DNA of 34,249 nt, from assembly GCA_944391335.1 (NCBI GenBank), contig CALXTF010000013.1:1-34249 (forward strand), in the 5' to 3' direction. Every line of letters begins with the position of its first letter. Position 1 is the first letter of the stretch. Below the pieces are notes generated by a model that had not been told where the DNA came from, ran no database searches, and saw nothing but the letters and a program-made list of their open reading frames with translations. Both the position numbers and the translations under genes were made by a program. Of the stretch, positions 22,163 to 34,098 are shown in pieces. This DNA is from an uncultured Alphaproteobacteria bacterium. Lineage in GTDB: Bacteria; Pseudomonadota; Alphaproteobacteria; RF32; CAG-239.

Positions 22163-22939
22163 TTATTCAATATTGGCTAATTCCGCTTTATTTAGCAAAA
22201 ATTGAGGCGTTTTATCTTGAAAAGTATGATATTTTTTACTTAAAGCCAGTGCTTCTGGATCAAGCATGGCTTTTTTAACCGCACTATTGCTTAATGATGT
22301 GCTGTTTTTTATATCTTTTGGTGTCGGAGCGGCTAAAGCGGCTTCTTGTTCTTTATTTTTATTAACTTTAATTTCTTCCGGTGCTTTTAAAATTTTATCA
22401 AGAATATTTTGTGTTTCTTTAGAACGTCGGTTTGTATAAACAATATTTTGTTTATCAGTCGGCATCATCTCAAGTAGTTTTTCCATATTTTTTATTTGTT
22501 TGTTTTTTTTGATGAGATTTATGTCGTCAACCACTAAAATATTGATTTCGGAAAGTTGAATTTGTCCTTCTGTGGTCAGATCAATGAGTAAATCAGGAGA
22601 ACCGATGATAACATCACAACTATTGCATCCATCGCTATCGTTTTCTTTTTCTTCATGAAAACGGCTTAAACGAGCTAATTGATCGGAAATCATAACTGAC
22701 TTTTGCGAATCGGAGGTCATAATTAAAATATTTCTCTTTTCGGGACGGCTGATAATATCGATTAAAGGTAAAACATATGACATTGTTTTACCACAGCAAC
22801 CGGGAGCAATGGTGAAAATATCTTTTCCTTCTAAAATGGCGGGAATAACATCAATTTGTACAGTGGTTGGTTTTTCGATACCATATTCGTTAATTGCTTT
22901 AACGGTTTGTTTGCTTAAGCCCAAATCTAGAAAATTCAT
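22163..22939 (-). CDS. Degenerate single-domain DEAD-box-like protein
   Basis: A 258-residue protein matching only the first RecA-like domain of DEAD-box RNA helicases. It starts MNFLDLGLSK with the Q-motif Gln at 28 (PTTVQ). Motif I is A45-PGCCGKT (Lys51 and Thr52 kept). Motif II is VDDIN (138-141) instead of DEAD, so the catalytic Glu is Asp and the last two residues differ. The motif Ib position reads GSPDLL and the SAT motif is YTN. There is no second RecA domain; a charged linker and an unrelated tail replace it. RNA unwinding is unlikely; nucleotide or RNA binding may remain. I chose ATG 22939 over an upstream GTG at 22978, because that GTG lies inside a promoter -10 box and GGGA precedes the ATG by 8 bases. 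Confidence 0.8.
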   Translation of the reverse strand: MNFLDLGLSKQTVKAINEYGIEKPTTVQIDVIPAILEGKDIFTIAPGCCGKTMSYVLPLIDIISRPEKRNILIMTSDSQKSVMISDQLARLSRFHEEKENDSDGCNSCDVIIGSPDLLIDLTTEGQIQLSEINILVVDDINLIKKNKQIKNMEKLLEMMPTDKQNIVYTNRRSKETQNILDKILKAPEEIKVNKNKEQEAALAAPTPKDIKNSTSLSNSAVKKAMLDPEALALSKKYHTFQDKTPQFLLNKAELANIE

Positions 22940-22970
22940 TTTTTTTATCCCATTAATTATGTTTGTTCGC

Positions 22971-22998
22971 ATTATCACTTATTTCATTAAAGAGTCAA
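22971..22998 (-). promoter_or_regulatory. Promoter for the DEAD-like gene
   Basis: On the minus strand, TTGACT (22998-22993), a 16-base spacer and GATAAT (22976-22971). The start would be near 22964, which puts the upstream GTG codon outside the transcript and supports translation from ATG 22939 (GGGA at 22951-22948). Confidence 0.55.
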
Positions 22999-28111: not shown

Positions 28112-29185
28112 ATGAGTTTTGCAGAAAATTTAGCTAATGTGGTTAATCGTTATGAAGAAATTTCTTCTTTATTGTCTTCTCCCGACGTAACTCCGGAAAA
28201 TCTCGTTAGAATGAATAAAGAATTAGCTGAGTTGGAACCAGTGGTCGATGCTGTTCATCATTACCAAAAAGCACAAAAAGATATGACAGAGGCTCAAATA
28301 ATGATGGATGATGCTTCTCTTGATAAAGAAATGCGGGAAATGGCGCAAACAGAATATTATGATTTGAAAAATCAATTACCTGAATTGGAAAAACAAATCA
28401 AAATCTTGCTGTTGCCCAAAGACAGCGAAGATGAAAAAAATGCTATTTTGGAAGTTAGAGCCGGTACCGGCGGTGATGAAGCTGCTTTATTTGCTGCCGT
28501 ATTATTTGAAATGTATCAACGTTATGCGCAAAAACAAGGTTGGAAATTTGAAATCCTTGATGCAGATGAAAACGGATTGGGTGGCTATAAAGAAGCTTCT
28601 GCCAAAATTGTCGGTAAAGATGTTTTTTCAAAATTAAAATTTGAATCAGGCGCGCATCGTGTTCAACGCGTACCTGTAACCGAATCTCAAGGACGTGTTC
28701 ACACTTCTGCCGCAACCGTCGCCGTTTTGCCCGAAATTGAAGAAGTCGATATGTATATTAATCCGGCAGATTTAAAAATAGATGTTTATCGCGCTTCAGG
28801 TGCAGGTGGACAACATGTTAATCGTACGGAATCAGCTGTAAGAATTACACATATTCCTACAGGAATCGTTGTTCAATGTCAGGATGATCGTTCACAATTT
28901 AAAAATAAAGAAAAAGCTCTAAATCATTTGCGGGCTAAACTTTACGATCAACAAAAATCAGCTATTGATGCCGAATATTCTCAACGCCGTAAGTTGCAAG
29001 TCGGCAGCGGCGACCGTTCCGAAAGAATAAGAACTTATAATTATCCGCAAGGACGTGTAACGGATCATCGTATCAATCTGACTTTATATAAATTGGATGA
29101 TATCGTTTCCGGTGACGCTTTAGGTGAAATTATAGACGCTTTAATAGCAGAAGATCAAGCTCAACGTCTGGCAGAATTGGAATAA
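28112..29185 (+). CDS. prfA: Peptide chain release factor 1
   Basis: RF1 ends translation at UAA and UAG. The 357-residue protein has the stop-codon-reading tripeptide P188-V189-T190 (the PxT of RF1, not the SPF of RF2) in [17 protein letters not shown]. The catalytic GGQ is at 232-234 in [15 protein letters not shown]. Length and domain order are normal. It starts directly on the hisS stop codon, with GAGGA inside the end of hisS. prmC, which methylates the GGQ glutamine and commonly follows prfA, is not next to it; an Asd-like gene comes 33 bases later. Confidence 0.97.
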
Positions 29186-29208
29186 CTTTCTTATTAAATG
29201 AAAAATAA

Positions 29209-29221
29209 AGAGGATAATATG
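29209..29221 (+). promoter_or_regulatory. Ribosome-binding site that fixes the Asd-like start
   Basis: AGAGGA (29209-29214) lies 4 bases before ATG 29219. An in-frame ATG at 29198 would add MKNKEDN, which has no Shine-Dalgarno and no family resemblance. The fold begins directly after 29219 with KKIAVIGV. Confidence 0.65.
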
Positions 29222-30223
29222 AAAAAAATCGCAGTTATTGGTGTTTTAGAAAGTGTCGGTAGAGAAGTCTTGGCTTTTTTGGCCGATGGCGGTTATAAAC
29301 TTTCCGAAGTCGCGGCTCTGGATGTCAAAGCTCCTTTGGGAACACAGGTCTCTTTCGGTGAAGAAAATGATATTGATGTATATAATCTAGATGATTTTGA
29401 TTTTTCAACAGTCGAAATTGCCGTTTTTACCACTACAGAAGAAATTTCACGCCGCTACGCGCTTAAAGCGGCACAAAAGGGATGTAAAGTTATAGATTGC
29501 AGCGGTGCTTTTTTTACGGATGGCGATGTTCCCATGATTATTGCCGGAGTTAATAATGAAAAACTCACTAAGGCTCCAAAAAATATTGTCAGCGTGCCTT
29601 CGGCAATCGTGACACAAATATTACTCCCTCTTAAAACCGTTGATGATTTGTATAAAATTAAGCGATTAATCATTTCAACTTATACATCAACTTCCGCTTA
29701 TGGAAAAGACGCCATGGATGAATTATTTAATCAAACTCGAAAAATATTTATGAATGAGAGTTTGGTCGATAATCAAAAAGTCTTTGATAAACAAATTGCT
29801 TTTAATGTTATTCCCCAAGTAGAGGATTTTATCGGAGAAGAAACTCGTTGTGAATGGATTATTAATGCTGAAAGTAAAAAAGTGCTTGATCGTGATATCA
29901 AGGTTCATGCAAATTGTGCTTTTGTTCCCGCTTTTATTGGAAATGCGGCTTATGTCAATGTCGAATGTCAACATGAAGTCGATGTCGATGAAGTGCGAAA
30001 ATTAATGAAACAAACAGAAGGGGTTATTGTTTTTGATAAAAATGTAAAAGGGGGATATGTTACCTTAAATGATGTGCAAGGTGAAATAGAAGTATATATT
30101 AGCCGCTTAAGACAAGATGCCTCTATTGAAAACGGCTTTAGTTTTTGGTCCGCAGCCGATAATTTTCGGTTCGGTCTAGCTGGTAATATCTATAAAATTA
30201 TACAATTATGGCAACAAAATTAA
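29219..30223 (+). CDS. Aspartate-semialdehyde dehydrogenase homologue lacking catalytic residues
   Basis: A 334-residue protein alignable end to end with Asd, which reduces aspartyl phosphate to its semialdehyde in lysine/threonine/diaminopimelate synthesis. The frame is recognisable: KKIAVIGV, ALKAAQKGCKVIDCSGAF, ISTYTSTSAYGKDAMDEL and the end SRLRQDASIENGFSFWSAADN. The key residues are changed. The GATGxVG cofactor loop reads GVLESVG. The nucleophile Cys of PNCxxxQ is Ala129 (PSAIVTQ). The active-site Gln of TYQ is Thr156. The RVP...GH segment reads FVPAFIGN, replacing Arg with Phe235 and His with Asn242. It should therefore not be an active Asd. A regulatory, scaffolding or new role is possible. 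The reading frame is intact, so this is not simple decay. Confidence 0.85.
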   Translation: MKKIAVIGVLESVGREVLAFLADGGYKLSEVAALDVKAPLGTQVSFGEENDIDVYNLDDFDFSTVEIAVFTTTEEISRRYALKAAQKGCKVIDCSGAFFTDGDVPMIIAGVNNEKLTKAPKNIVSVPSAIVTQILLPLKTVDDLYKIKRLIISTYTSTSAYGKDAMDELFNQTRKIFMNESLVDNQKVFDKQIAFNVIPQVEDFIGEETRCEWIINAESKKVLDRDIKVHANCAFVPAFIGNAAYVNVECQHEVDVDEVRKLMKQTEGVIVFDKNVKGGYVTLNDVQGEIEVYISRLRQDASIENGFSFWSAADNFRFGLAGNIYKIIQLWQQN

Positions 30224-30238
30224 TTTAATTCTCGCGTT

Positions 30239-30254
30239 AAGGAGGTGTAAAATG
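30239..30254 (+). promoter_or_regulatory. Full-length Shine-Dalgarno of the MscS-family gene
   Basis: AAGGAGGT (30239-30246) lies 5 bases before ATG 30252. This is the longest Shine-Dalgarno match in the window; other genes use 4-6 base versions. It suggests efficient initiation inside the long transcript. Confidence 0.7.
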
Positions 30255-32759
30255 AAAATTTACCAATTATGGAAAATAATCGCATTTTTAATGATGTTTG
30301 TCTTTCAAACAGCTTATGCCTCCGGTAATACAGTAAATAATGATTATCTTGGATTAAATTATGAGACAATTACAAAAGAACTCAATAAAATTGAAGAAAA
30401 TTTGAAATCTGGTAAAACTGATGCTCAAATAATTAATGAATATGTTTCTTTTTTAGGTGAAATACGCTCTCGTTTACATGAAATTCAACCTTATTTAGAA
30501 GTGAAATTAAAAAATATTAATAAAAGAATAGAAACATTAGGTGAAGCACCGGCAGAAGGTGAAGAAGAACTTCCTCTTATAGCCGAAAAACGAAAAGAAT
30601 ATAATGAAGAAGCTGTTCATCAAAAAGGACGAATAGCTGAAAATGATCTGCTTATTAATCGTATTGATGAATTAACCGGATTAATTGTTGCGGTACGGAA
30701 TAAGATCTTGTTTGGTAATTTGTTTATATATCAGACACCTCTCATCTATCCTTCTATTTTCTTAAAAACAACACGTTTATTTTTTGATTTTTGTTTTAAA
30801 ATCATAAAATCTCCAATCGATTGGTATCAGGAATTATCTCAACAACAAAAACAAACGGTTCATTCTAATTTATTACCTGTTTTGTTGGCTATTATTATTA
30901 CTTTTGCTTTCGCTTATATGCTCAGAGTGCTTATTCTTAAATATCTTGGTTATAAAAAAAATGTAACGGAAATGCCTCCTTATGTTACAAGAGTTATGGC
31001 AGCTTTTTTTGTTGCTTGCGCATATGGTATTATACCTGCTATTTTACTGGGTAGTTTTTTAGTATGGGCTGTTCATACTCAGATTTTAGTCATAGGCTTT
31101 TTTGGTATAACATTATCAAGTGTTTTATATTATTTATTATATATTCTCTTGGCTAACGCCGTTGTCCGCGTTGTGTTCGCTCCATATAACAGTATGTGGC
31201 GGTTAATTAATATTGATGATGCTAAAGCCAAACAAATGACGGGGACTTTCTATTTTAGCTTTTTCTGTATCGGCATTAGCGGAATGTTGTTACATATTGC
31301 TGAACAAGCCGGATTGTCTTCTGAACTCTTATATTTTTTATCTTTTGTTAATAGTACCATAAAAGCGGCTTGTCTTGTCTTGATCGTTAAAAGTGTTTTT
31401 GGCGATGATGCAGCTTTAGTTGAAAATATGAATGAGGATGAAGCCGATATTGCCGATACTAAAGCAAGAACCGCTTTTCGTCTTATTTTCTTAACATCAA
31501 TATTCGCCGTCGTTATTGCCGGTATTTCTTTGTTTGGTTATCCTCGATTGGCTGCTTTTATTATTAATCGATTTTTAATATCCTTATTGATTATCGGTGC
31601 GTTTATTGTAATTAATAAATCAGTTTTTGAGTTAATTAAACGGATTCTATTATTTAATTTTTGGATTAAAACTTTACATATGCGACGCCGTTTAATTGAA
31701 AAAGTAGATTTTTGGTTAAATGTTATTTTAAATCCTTTGTTTGTTATTCTTACCATTTTAGTTATTTTATCTTTATGGGGGGTATCAACAGATTTATTAC
31801 TGCAAAGTATTTCAAAACTTTTGTTTGGTTTTAAAATCGGCGGTATTGAGATTTCCTTATTATCAATTTTATTAGGAATAGCGGTCTTTTTCGCTTGCAT
31901 TAGTCTTGTCAGAATTATGCGGCGTAAACTTTTTGATAATATATTGTCTCATGTTGAAATGGATGATGGAATACGCCATTCTTTAGCCTCTGGTTTTGGT
32001 TTCGTTGGTTTTGTGCTTGCGGTTTTTCTTGCAATAGCCGTTATGGGTGGAGATTTAAGTAATATTGCTTTGGTCGCCGGTGCTCTTTCTGTTGGTATTG
32101 GACTTGGTTTGCAAGGCGTCGTTAATAATTTTGTATCCGGAATTATCTTGTTATTTGAACGTCCCGTTAAAGTGGGTGACTGGGTGATTATTAATGGTGA
32201 GGAAGGACAAGTTAAGCAGATTAATATTCGTTCAACAGAAGTCGAAACATTTAAAAAATCAAGCGTTATTATTCCTAATGCCACTTTACTTTCAACATCA
32301 GTAACTAATTTGACACATAGTAATAATTGGGCTAGGCAATCTGTAACTGTTGGTGTCGCTTATGGAAGTGATGCTAAAAAAGTAAGTGATATATTATTGG
32401 AATGTGCCAAAAATAATCGTAAAGTATTAAAAAATCCGGCTCCTTATGTTTTATTTCAAGATTTTGGCGCAAGTAGTTTAATTTTTGAGCTGCGCTGTTA
32501 TACCAGTGATATTTGGACCGGATGGATGATACCAAGTGAACTGCGTTTTGAAATCGATAGACGTTTCCGTGAAGAAGGTATTGAAATTCCATTTAATCAA
32601 CTTGTCGTTCACCGCGGTGGTGAAGTTAGTGAAGAGTCTCAATCCCAATTCTATGCAAAACGTTTGATTGCTGAACATAATCTGAATAATGAAAAAAATG
32701 TTGAAAATGTGGAACATTCAAAAATTGTGACCAAAAAGGATAAAAGTAATGTTGATTAA
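30252..32759 (+). CDS. Large MscS-family mechanosensitive channel
   Basis: An 835-residue inner-membrane protein. The first 23 residues are a signal peptide (cleavage after AYA). Residues ~30-150 form a periplasmic coiled-coil domain like that of the large MscK/YbdG-type relatives. About eight or more hydrophobic segments follow between ~205 and ~625. The MscS core is at ~600-720: the pore-helix segment GIGLGLQGVVNNFVSGI, then ERPVKVGDWVIINGEEGQV, then VIIPNATLLSTSVTN of the beta domain. The cytoplasmic vestibule follows, then a variable charged tail. Such channels open under membrane tension to release solutes in osmotic downshock. It starts 28 bases after the Asd-like gene and overlaps the next gene by 11 bases. 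Confidence 0.92.
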   Translation: MKIYQLWKIIAFLMMFVFQTAYASGNTVNNDYLGLNYETITKELNKIEENLKSGKTDAQIINEYVSFLGEIRSRLHEIQPYLEVKLKNINKRIETLGEAPAEGEEELPLIAEKRKEYNEEAVHQKGRIAENDLLINRIDELTGLIVAVRNKILFGNLFIYQTPLIYPSIFLKTTRLFFDFCFKIIKSPIDWYQELSQQQKQTVHSNLLPVLLAIIITFAFAYMLRVLILKYLGYKKNVTEMPPYVTRVMAAFFVACAYGIIPAILLGSFLVWAVHTQILVIGFFGITLSSVLYYLLYILLANAVVRVVFAPYNSMWRLINIDDAKAKQMTGTFYFSFFCIGISGMLLHIAEQAGLSSELLYFLSFVNSTIKAACLVLIVKSVFGDDAALVENMNEDEADIADTKARTAFRLIFLTSIFAVVIAGISLFGYPRLAAFIINRFLISLLIIGAFIVINKSVFELIKRILLFNFWIKTLHMRRRLIEKVDFWLNVILNPLFVILTILVILSLWGVSTDLLLQSISKLLFGFKIGGIEISLLSILLGIAVFFACISLVRIMRRKLFDNILSHVEMDDGIRHSLASGFGFVGFVLAVFLAIAVMGGDLSNIALVAGALSVGIGLGLQGVVNNFVSGIILLFERPVKVGDWVIINGEEGQVKQINIRSTEVETFKKSSVIIPNATLLSTSVTNLTHSNNWARQSVTVGVAYGSDAKKVSDILLECAKNNRKVLKNPAPYVLFQDFGASSLIFELRCYTSDIWTGWMIPSELRFEIDRRFREEGIEIPFNQLVVHRGGEVSEESQSQFYAKRLIAEHNLNNEKNVENVEHSKIVTKKDKSNVD

Positions 32760-34098
32760 TGATTTGAAAAATAAAAAAATCGCCGTGTGGGGATTAGGGG
32801 CAGAAGGTCAACAAATTGTTCAATATTTACAAAAACATAAAATTACTCAAAATATTATTTTGCTAAATGATGATATAATTAAATTACCAGTTTGGGCTCA
32901 AGAATATTCATTATTTTATGGTGAAAATCTTGTCGAAGGGCTTAATCAAGCGGAAATTGTCATAAGATCTCCGGGGGTAAGTATTTATCGTGATGAAATT
33001 ATAGAGGCTAAGAAAAACGGAACAATAATAACTTCCGTTACGGATTTATGTTTAAACGAGTTTTTAAAACGACCTAATTGTAAAGTAATTGGTATTAGCG
33101 GTTCAAAAGGTAAAAGCACGAGTGCCAGTGTTCTGGCTTATATTTTACAAAATATGGGATATAAAACAGCTTTGGGCGGAAATATAGGAACACCTATGAT
33201 TGAATTGCTTGATGGTGATTATGAATATGTAGTTGAAGAATTTTCAAGTTATCAAGCTTCTGATTTAACAGCTTCACCTCATATTGCCATGTTTACTAAC
33301 TTGTATTATGTCCATAGTGATTGGCATCATGGGCATGAAAATTATTGTCGTGATAAAATTCATTTAATTGCTAATCAAACAAAGGGTGATGTATATTTTG
33401 CAAATTTTCAAAACCCTCAATTGTTATTATATACAAAGCCTTATGAAACAAATCGTCGTTGGTATAACACAGTCGAAGGATTTTATGCGCAAAATGGCAT
33501 ATTATATCATCGGAAAAATAAAATAGTTGATATTAGACAATTAAAGATAAATGGTTTTCACAATATGGAAAATTTAGCAGGTGTTTTTTCAATTCTAGAA
33601 TATCTGGGGATGGATATTGATAAAGCAGCTCAATTATTAAAAGATTTTGAACCTTTGCCTCATCGTCTGCAAAAGGTTCTAATTAAAGATAATGTTTGTT
33701 TTATTAATGACAGCATTTCAACAGCACCGGAAGCGGCTATAGGGGCGATTAATAGTTTTGACGGTAATATTGTCCTTATCTCCGGAGGTCAAGACAATCA
33801 ACAGGATTATCGTCCTTATGCTCAAGCTGTAGAAGAAAATCAAAAGGTTAAAATGGTATTAACTTTGTTTCAAACCGGACCCAAAATTGCTTCTTTCCTT
33901 CGTCAATATGTGAAAAGAAAGGACTTTGAGTTAGTTGAAGTTGATAATTTAGAACAGGCTGTGAAATTAGCTTATCAAAAGTTAAAAGTTATTGGAGGGG
34001 GAACGGTCTTATTTTCTCCAACAAGTCCGAGTTTTGGATATTATCATAACTTTATGGAACGTGGAAACCATTTTATTAAAATTGTTCATGCTTTATAA
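32749..34098 (+). CDS. murD: MurD-family UDP-MurNAc-L-Ala:glutamate ligase, MurD2-like
   Basis: A 449-residue Mur ligase that adds glutamate to UDP-MurNAc-L-alanine in the cytoplasm during peptidoglycan synthesis. An N-terminal Rossmann domain (KKIAVWGLGAEGQQ) precedes the ATP loop GSKGKST (118-124), Lys203 of the Y..DK segment, and the C-terminal ligand domain. Several signatures differ together from standard MurD: GSKGKST for GTNGKST, SSYQ (166-169) for SSFQL, DWH (191-193) for DRH, NDSISTAP for DSKATN, and SPTSPSFGYYHNFMERG for SPACAS...ERG. This set resembles, from memory, the MurD2 type that uses L-glutamate in Xanthomonas. Function as a Mur ligase is secure; glutamate stereochemistry is uncertain. 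It begins 11 bases inside the channel gene, with AAGGA upstream. Confidence 0.88.
   Translation: MLINDLKNKKIAVWGLGAEGQQIVQYLQKHKITQNIILLNDDIIKLPVWAQEYSLFYGENLVEGLNQAEIVIRSPGVSIYRDEIIEAKKNGTIITSVTDLCLNEFLKRPNCKVIGISGSKGKSTSASVLAYILQNMGYKTALGGNIGTPMIELLDGDYEYVVEEFSSYQASDLTASPHIAMFTNLYYVHSDWHHGHENYCRDKIHLIANQTKGDVYFANFQNPQLLLYTKPYETNRRWYNTVEGFYAQNGILYHRKNKIVDIRQLKINGFHNMENLAGVFSILEYLGMDIDKAAQLLKDFEPLPHRLQKVLIKDNVCFINDSISTAPEAAIGAINSFDGNIVLISGGQDNQQDYRPYAQAVEENQKVKMVLTLFQTGPKIASFLRQYVKRKDFELVEVDNLEQAVKLAYQKLKVIGGGTVLFSPTSPSFGYYHNFMERGNHFIKIVHAL

Follow-up and report, generated by a model that had tools for sequence, protein, structure and literature searches.

Why would a bacterium keep an intact gene for a protein that looks like aspartate-semialdehyde dehydrogenase (Asd, or ASADH) and has none of the residues with which that enzyme works? 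Such a gene lies at positions 29219–30223 of the window, i.e. the whole stretch of 34,249 nucleotides that was analysed. The features that surround it are as follows.

28112..29185, plus strand: prfA, the upstream neighbour in the gene's own genus only
29209..29214 (approximate to a base or two), plus strand: AGAGGA, resembling a ribosome-binding site, just 5' of the ATG at 29219 (read from the sequence)
29219..30223, plus strand: Asd-fold pseudoenzyme (334 aa) without catalytic or phosphate-binding residues
29600..29605, plus strand: codons 128–129 of this gene, Ser-Ala in place of the Asn-Cys (catalytic Cys) of canonical Asd, by alignment
30224..30251, plus strand: intergenic gap of 28 nt with the ribosome-binding site AAGGAGGTG
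30252..32759, plus strand: MscK/MscS-type mechanosensitive channel by Pfam match (835 aa), with a signal-peptide-like N-terminus
32749..34098, plus strand: murD, found 3' of the channel in the same genus and in some other genera (G020, G018)

The window also encodes, on the minus strand (22163–22978), a short DEAD-box-like protein of 271 aa, which seemingly consists of the first RecA-like domain only; its P-loop is unusual (APGCCGKT), and its motif II reads VVDD.

The Asd-fold protein and its active-site positions

The reading frame runs through 334 codons without an internal stop. A longer version starting at 29198 is unlikely, because the AGAGGA motif sits just before the ATG at 29219. The protein aligns over its whole length with ASADHs of solved structure (E = 3e-48 for the Vibrio enzyme, 2qz9) and scores 272 bits with the PRK14874 profile (NF011456), the cut-off of which is 223. 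A structural model, one of the checks suggested with the original prediction, was made with AlphaFold2 (pLDDT 88) and superposes on ASADH 2r00 with a VIA Z of 42.9 and an rmsd of 2.0 over 326 residues. As modelled, the Asd fold is intact, and the claim of full-length homology to Asd is borne out by alignment, profile score and fold match alike.

The original prediction had also listed the replacement of the catalytic Cys by Ala129, of the active-site Gln by Thr156, of the substrate-site Arg and His by Phe235 and Asn242, and of the nucleotide loop GATGxVG by GVLESVG, all of which are correct. The alignment extends this list to the oxyanion-site Arg (position 99, now Phe), Asn128 (Ser) and the substrate Glu and Lys (positions 211 and 214, now Cys and Ile), so that the catalytic Cys and His, the active-site Gln, the substrate Arg and Glu, and the phosphate-binding Arg/Lys are all missing. 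In the cofactor site G11 (P-loop), S36, S39, G73 and N126 are lost, and G8, G14 and N323 are retained. The roles of the Cys, His, Arg, Glu and Lys residues in ASADH have been described, and single mutants of the H. influenzae enzyme keep less than 0.01% (C136S), 1% (H277N) or 0.1% (R270K) of its activity (PMC3276109). It is nearly certain that the window protein is catalytically inactive.

Three other compromised Asds also pass the NF011456 cut-off (L059 with 324 bits, L060 with 325 and L029 with 238), and a fourth, L032, lies just under it with 217.5 bits. Automatic annotation would mislabel such proteins as Asd because they score above the NCBI equivalog cut-off, and metabolic models of their genomes could credit a dead pathway step.

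Loss of the aspartate pathway and conservation of the gene

The pseudo-Asd is the only Asd homologue in its source genome, which is 99.9% complete; a second, canonical asd was looked for, as had been proposed, and there is none. LysC, DapA, DapB, DapF and homoserine dehydrogenase (Hom) are absent from this genome as well, which leaves Asd with neither a substrate nor a consumer, and the pathway context of an ASADH (aspartokinase upstream, DapA or Hom downstream) is missing. Searches of family f1 found no DapF or homoserine dehydrogenase, no DapA outside G024 and no aspartokinase outside G024 and G026, both of which carry lysC; for DapB, again with G024 excepted, they found only weak matches to frames of 300–390 aa. 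G024, alone within f1, has a catalytic Asd with its Cys, Gln, Arg and His in place, encoded in a separate, compact lysC-dapA-asd-dapB cluster, and it has kept the dead asd–mscS pair too. The cluster (L067 5277–8746, G024:C1), whose catalytic Asd is divergent, is perhaps a re-acquired pathway. As only G024 has a catalytic Asd, most of f1 contains no true Asd to regulate. The suggestion that the protein regulates or partners the true Asd finds no support in a genome that has no other Asd and none of the pathway enzymes named above.

The distribution of MurE in f1 is patchy: it occurs in most g1 genomes and in several other genera, and was not detected in complete f1 genomes such as G011, G014–G017, G022, G025 and G028–G031. 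The MurE of the source genome (G000:C20:14156–15541, L126) keeps the DAP-type DDNPR motif; since the genes for DAP synthesis were not found, DAP has to be supplied externally or via an unrecognised route. Mpl, which would provide a route for salvaged murein tripeptide, gave no match over the cut-off. We tentatively take the family to be host-associated, from its apparent fit to small-genome gut Alphaproteobacteria such as the order RF32.

An orthologue of the pseudo-Asd occurs in 32 of the 33 f1 genomes (15 genera, 53–100% identity), the sole exception being a genome that is 70% complete. The orthologues are nearly uniform in length (329–344 aa), and all 32 genomes have lost the Cys, Arg235 and almost every other catalytic residue, a shared loss that can be due neither to chance nor to a single decayed copy. 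When compared to a reference set of 29 canonical alphaproteobacterial Asds, in which 103 positions are invariant, f1 has lost 27 of these (the canonical residue being found in fewer than 10% of f1 rows), including 8 of the 8 known active-site positions (enrichment of active-site positions among the lost ones, Fisher p = 9e-6). Another 58 positions are conserved in both groups. The dN/dS ratio is 0.026–0.036 in three close f1 pairs with usable dS and 0.09 in a fourth; many other pairs are saturated in dS, and for distant pairs the larger ratios are unreliable. Conservation of the pseudo-Asd under strong purifying selection is near certain in f1, and the original description of a conserved pseudoenzyme is upheld by the shared residue loss and by this selection (omega of about 0.03 in the closest pairs). 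That the window copy is a decaying outlier is rejected by the full-length orthologues and the low omega across f1. In the orthologues proposed as a check, the loss of Cys and His is shared, and the residues that have replaced them at positions 129 and 242 vary.

The variation extends to the pocket as a whole. Positions 129, 156, 214, 235 and 242 have entropies of 1.1–2.9 bits and carry mixed, largely non-catalytic residues, and nine positions (D53, P137, D184, N216, F272, D285, Q287, Q299 and S302) are invariant in f1 only. Because the pocket positions vary freely while others have become newly invariant, the gene is under selection, though not for catalysis.

The neighbouring channel gene and the origin of the locus

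The gene downstream of the dead asd encodes a channel protein with matches to the Pfam domains MS_channel_2nd (5.9e-23) and MS_channel_3rd (8.5e-20), the closest solved relative of which is MscK. Wherever enough of an f1 locus is available, an MscS-type channel gene directly follows the dead asd, at a distance of 4–41 nt. In the window, the short gap of 28 nt, the channel's own ribosome-binding site and the lack of any terminator found within this gap suggest that the two genes are co-transcribed. The upstream side is variable. The prfA gene precedes the dead asd in 12 of 12 g1 loci and in none outside g1; in other f1 genera this place is taken by rimM-trmD-rplS, a deoA-like gene or unrelated genes. 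The operon with prfA and peptidoglycan genes that had been proposed is thus real locally, but it does not hold family-wide, and as a conserved context this linkage is rejected in favour of the downstream channel, which is the constant neighbour.

The same asd–channel pair is found in f23 (G054 and G185), where Pro or Ser stands in place of the Cys. It also occurs in the sister family f2 (G033), where the Cys has become Ser and the channel N-terminus lies at the end of a contig, with the remainder at the start of another. At 21 canonical asd loci covered with wider flanks, asd never adjoins an MscS gene; canonical relatives have an orthologous channel on other contigs or far from asd. The source genome encodes a second, diverged MscK-like channel (G000:C4:62321–64597, L119; 36% identical). 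This second paralogue, which some relatives also have, has no adjoining asd, so the channel type as such does not need an asd partner.

The dead asd occupies the ancestral asd locus, since relatives show rplS-asd or rplS-leuB-like-asd arrangements, and the rimM-trmD-rplS-leuB-asd position is still visible. The pseudo-Asd is a vertical descendant of the gene at this rplS-leuB-asd locus and not a paralogue. In trees, f1, f2 and f23 group together against canonical Asd, with long branches that blur the inner order, and none of the alternatives put to AU tests was rejected; as far as the sequences go, the trees would be compatible with a single loss of catalysis or with several. The Asd of G033 represents an intermediate state of active-site erosion: it keeps Arg99, Asn128, Gln156 and Glu211 and has lost the Cys, Arg235, His and Lys214. 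The leuB-like gene directly 5' of asd in this genome is split into two overlapping frames (L060 2153–3503), possibly by a frameshift; the asd itself is intact. G054 (f23, L059; 87% complete) has DapA, DapB, DapF and MurE, no match to LysC or Hom, and a sole Asd that is catalytically compromised. Together, a vertically inherited gene, a vanished pathway, an active site eroded stepwise and a fold under selection make up a clean example from nature of an enzyme exapted as a pseudoenzyme.

A possible channel partner among known systems

An asd that has been stripped of its catalytic residues and always lies directly before a channel gene suggests re-use as a channel partner. Judging from gene order, we give even chances to the pseudoenzyme having been recruited to the MscK/MscS-type channel, either as an ancillary soluble subunit or as a regulator, which makes this channel a specific candidate partner. 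The asd pathway would have been lost as the lineage became auxotrophic for diaminopimelate and the threonine family, and the soluble Asd-fold protein, freed from catalysis, would have been kept as a dedicated partner of the channel encoded downstream. Co-translated with the channel and most likely still an Asd dimer, it could bind the cytosolic channel face, e.g. the cage or a cytosolic loop, and thereby set how the channel gates or how stable it is, in the way that the oxidoreductase KefF acts on KefC. Binding, an effect on gating and any ligand are inferences; gene adjacency is evidence of co-expression, not of binding. In its own genus the pseudo-Asd may also be co-expressed with growth genes, because the operon contains prfA and murD.

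The main rival to a channel partner is a conserved pseudoenzyme with a channel-unrelated function (a ligand sensor, a scaffold or a partner of some other protein) that is merely co-transcribed with mscS. This is possible, if somewhat doubtful: the same conservation and inactivity data fit it, and USG-1 proteins, related members of the Asd fold in which residues have likewise been lost, are encoded in an unrelated operon (PMC6358828), but the genes upstream differ from genus to genus, with the channel always next in line downstream, and the pair recurs in f2 and f23. A new enzyme, with a pocket that performs non-covalent chemistry on another substrate, is improbable. The nine positions invariant in f1 only speak for it, but one would expect conservation of any newly fixed active site, whereas the pocket positions drift, and the nucleotide-site residues are lost as well (G11, S36, S39, G73, N126). 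Decay of a relic into a pseudogene agrees with the loss of both pathway and catalytic residues; it is largely refuted, and very improbable, given a full-length gene in 15 genera, identities of 53–84% among the orthologues, an omega of about 0.03 in the closest pairs and the expectation that small genomes delete useless genes. Hardly credible at all is an Asd still active via other residues, for even though the protein scores above the equivalog cut-off, its nucleophile, acid–base His, and substrate and phosphate ligands are all missing, and the pathway has no kinase upstream and no consumers downstream.

How does a channel-linked pseudo-Asd compare with known proteins? Profile and fold searches assign the window protein to ASADH (asd; PRK14874/TIGR01296), with which it shares full-length sequence homology, the fold and the ancestral locus. 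Unlike ASADH, the f1 protein has no catalytic, substrate or phosphate residues, its P-loop is eroded, it has no aspartate pathway around it, and it is linked to a channel. Its sequence indicates an Asd by descent that fails the defining features of the enzyme by function. In the alignment, another Asd-fold relative, USG-1 or Usg (P. aeruginosa, 2hjs), also shows Ala where the Cys would be and Asp in place of the His. Usg hosts keep a true Asd. The window protein scores 184.7 bits with the Usg profile PRK05671 (cut-off 284) and 196.3 bits with PRK08040 (cut-off 273), and the dead-asd loci show no neighbourhood of the pdxB-usg-truA type, which is that of the Usg operon (pdxB-usg-truA-dedA, PMC6358828). 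Membership in Usg is rejected on both scores and on locus; Usg is a separate family, whereas asd proper was the ancestor of the f1 gene. A limited literature search that paired ASADH with pseudoenzymes and with USG-1 found no paper, and one for MscS accessory subunits gave nothing relevant.

The closest likeness in gene arrangement is to KefF. This oxidoreductase, whose gene lies immediately 5' of kefC, is required for KefC to be fully active, but its own enzymatic activity is dispensable for KefC activation (PMC10224563). Here, too, the gene of a soluble, oxidoreductase-like protein lies directly 5' of a membrane ion-transport gene in a putative single operon. The likeness is one of gene arrangement alone: KefF is an active quinone reductase of ~20 kDa on the KTN domain of a CPA2 antiporter, whereas in f1 a catalytically empty Asd fold is paired with an MscS/MscK channel. 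Kv-beta of animal K+ channels is a comparable case. The window channel matches the large MscS-type channels MscK and MscM over their C-terminal channel core, and to our knowledge no MscS-family channel has been described with a dedicated dehydrogenase-fold subunit. If an ancestral biosynthetic dehydrogenase has indeed, after its pathway was lost, become an obligate part of an MscK/MscS-type channel, as a regulatory or a structural subunit, which we put at slightly less than an even chance, it would be the first Asd-fold channel subunit, possibly with multiple origins (f1/f2 and f23).
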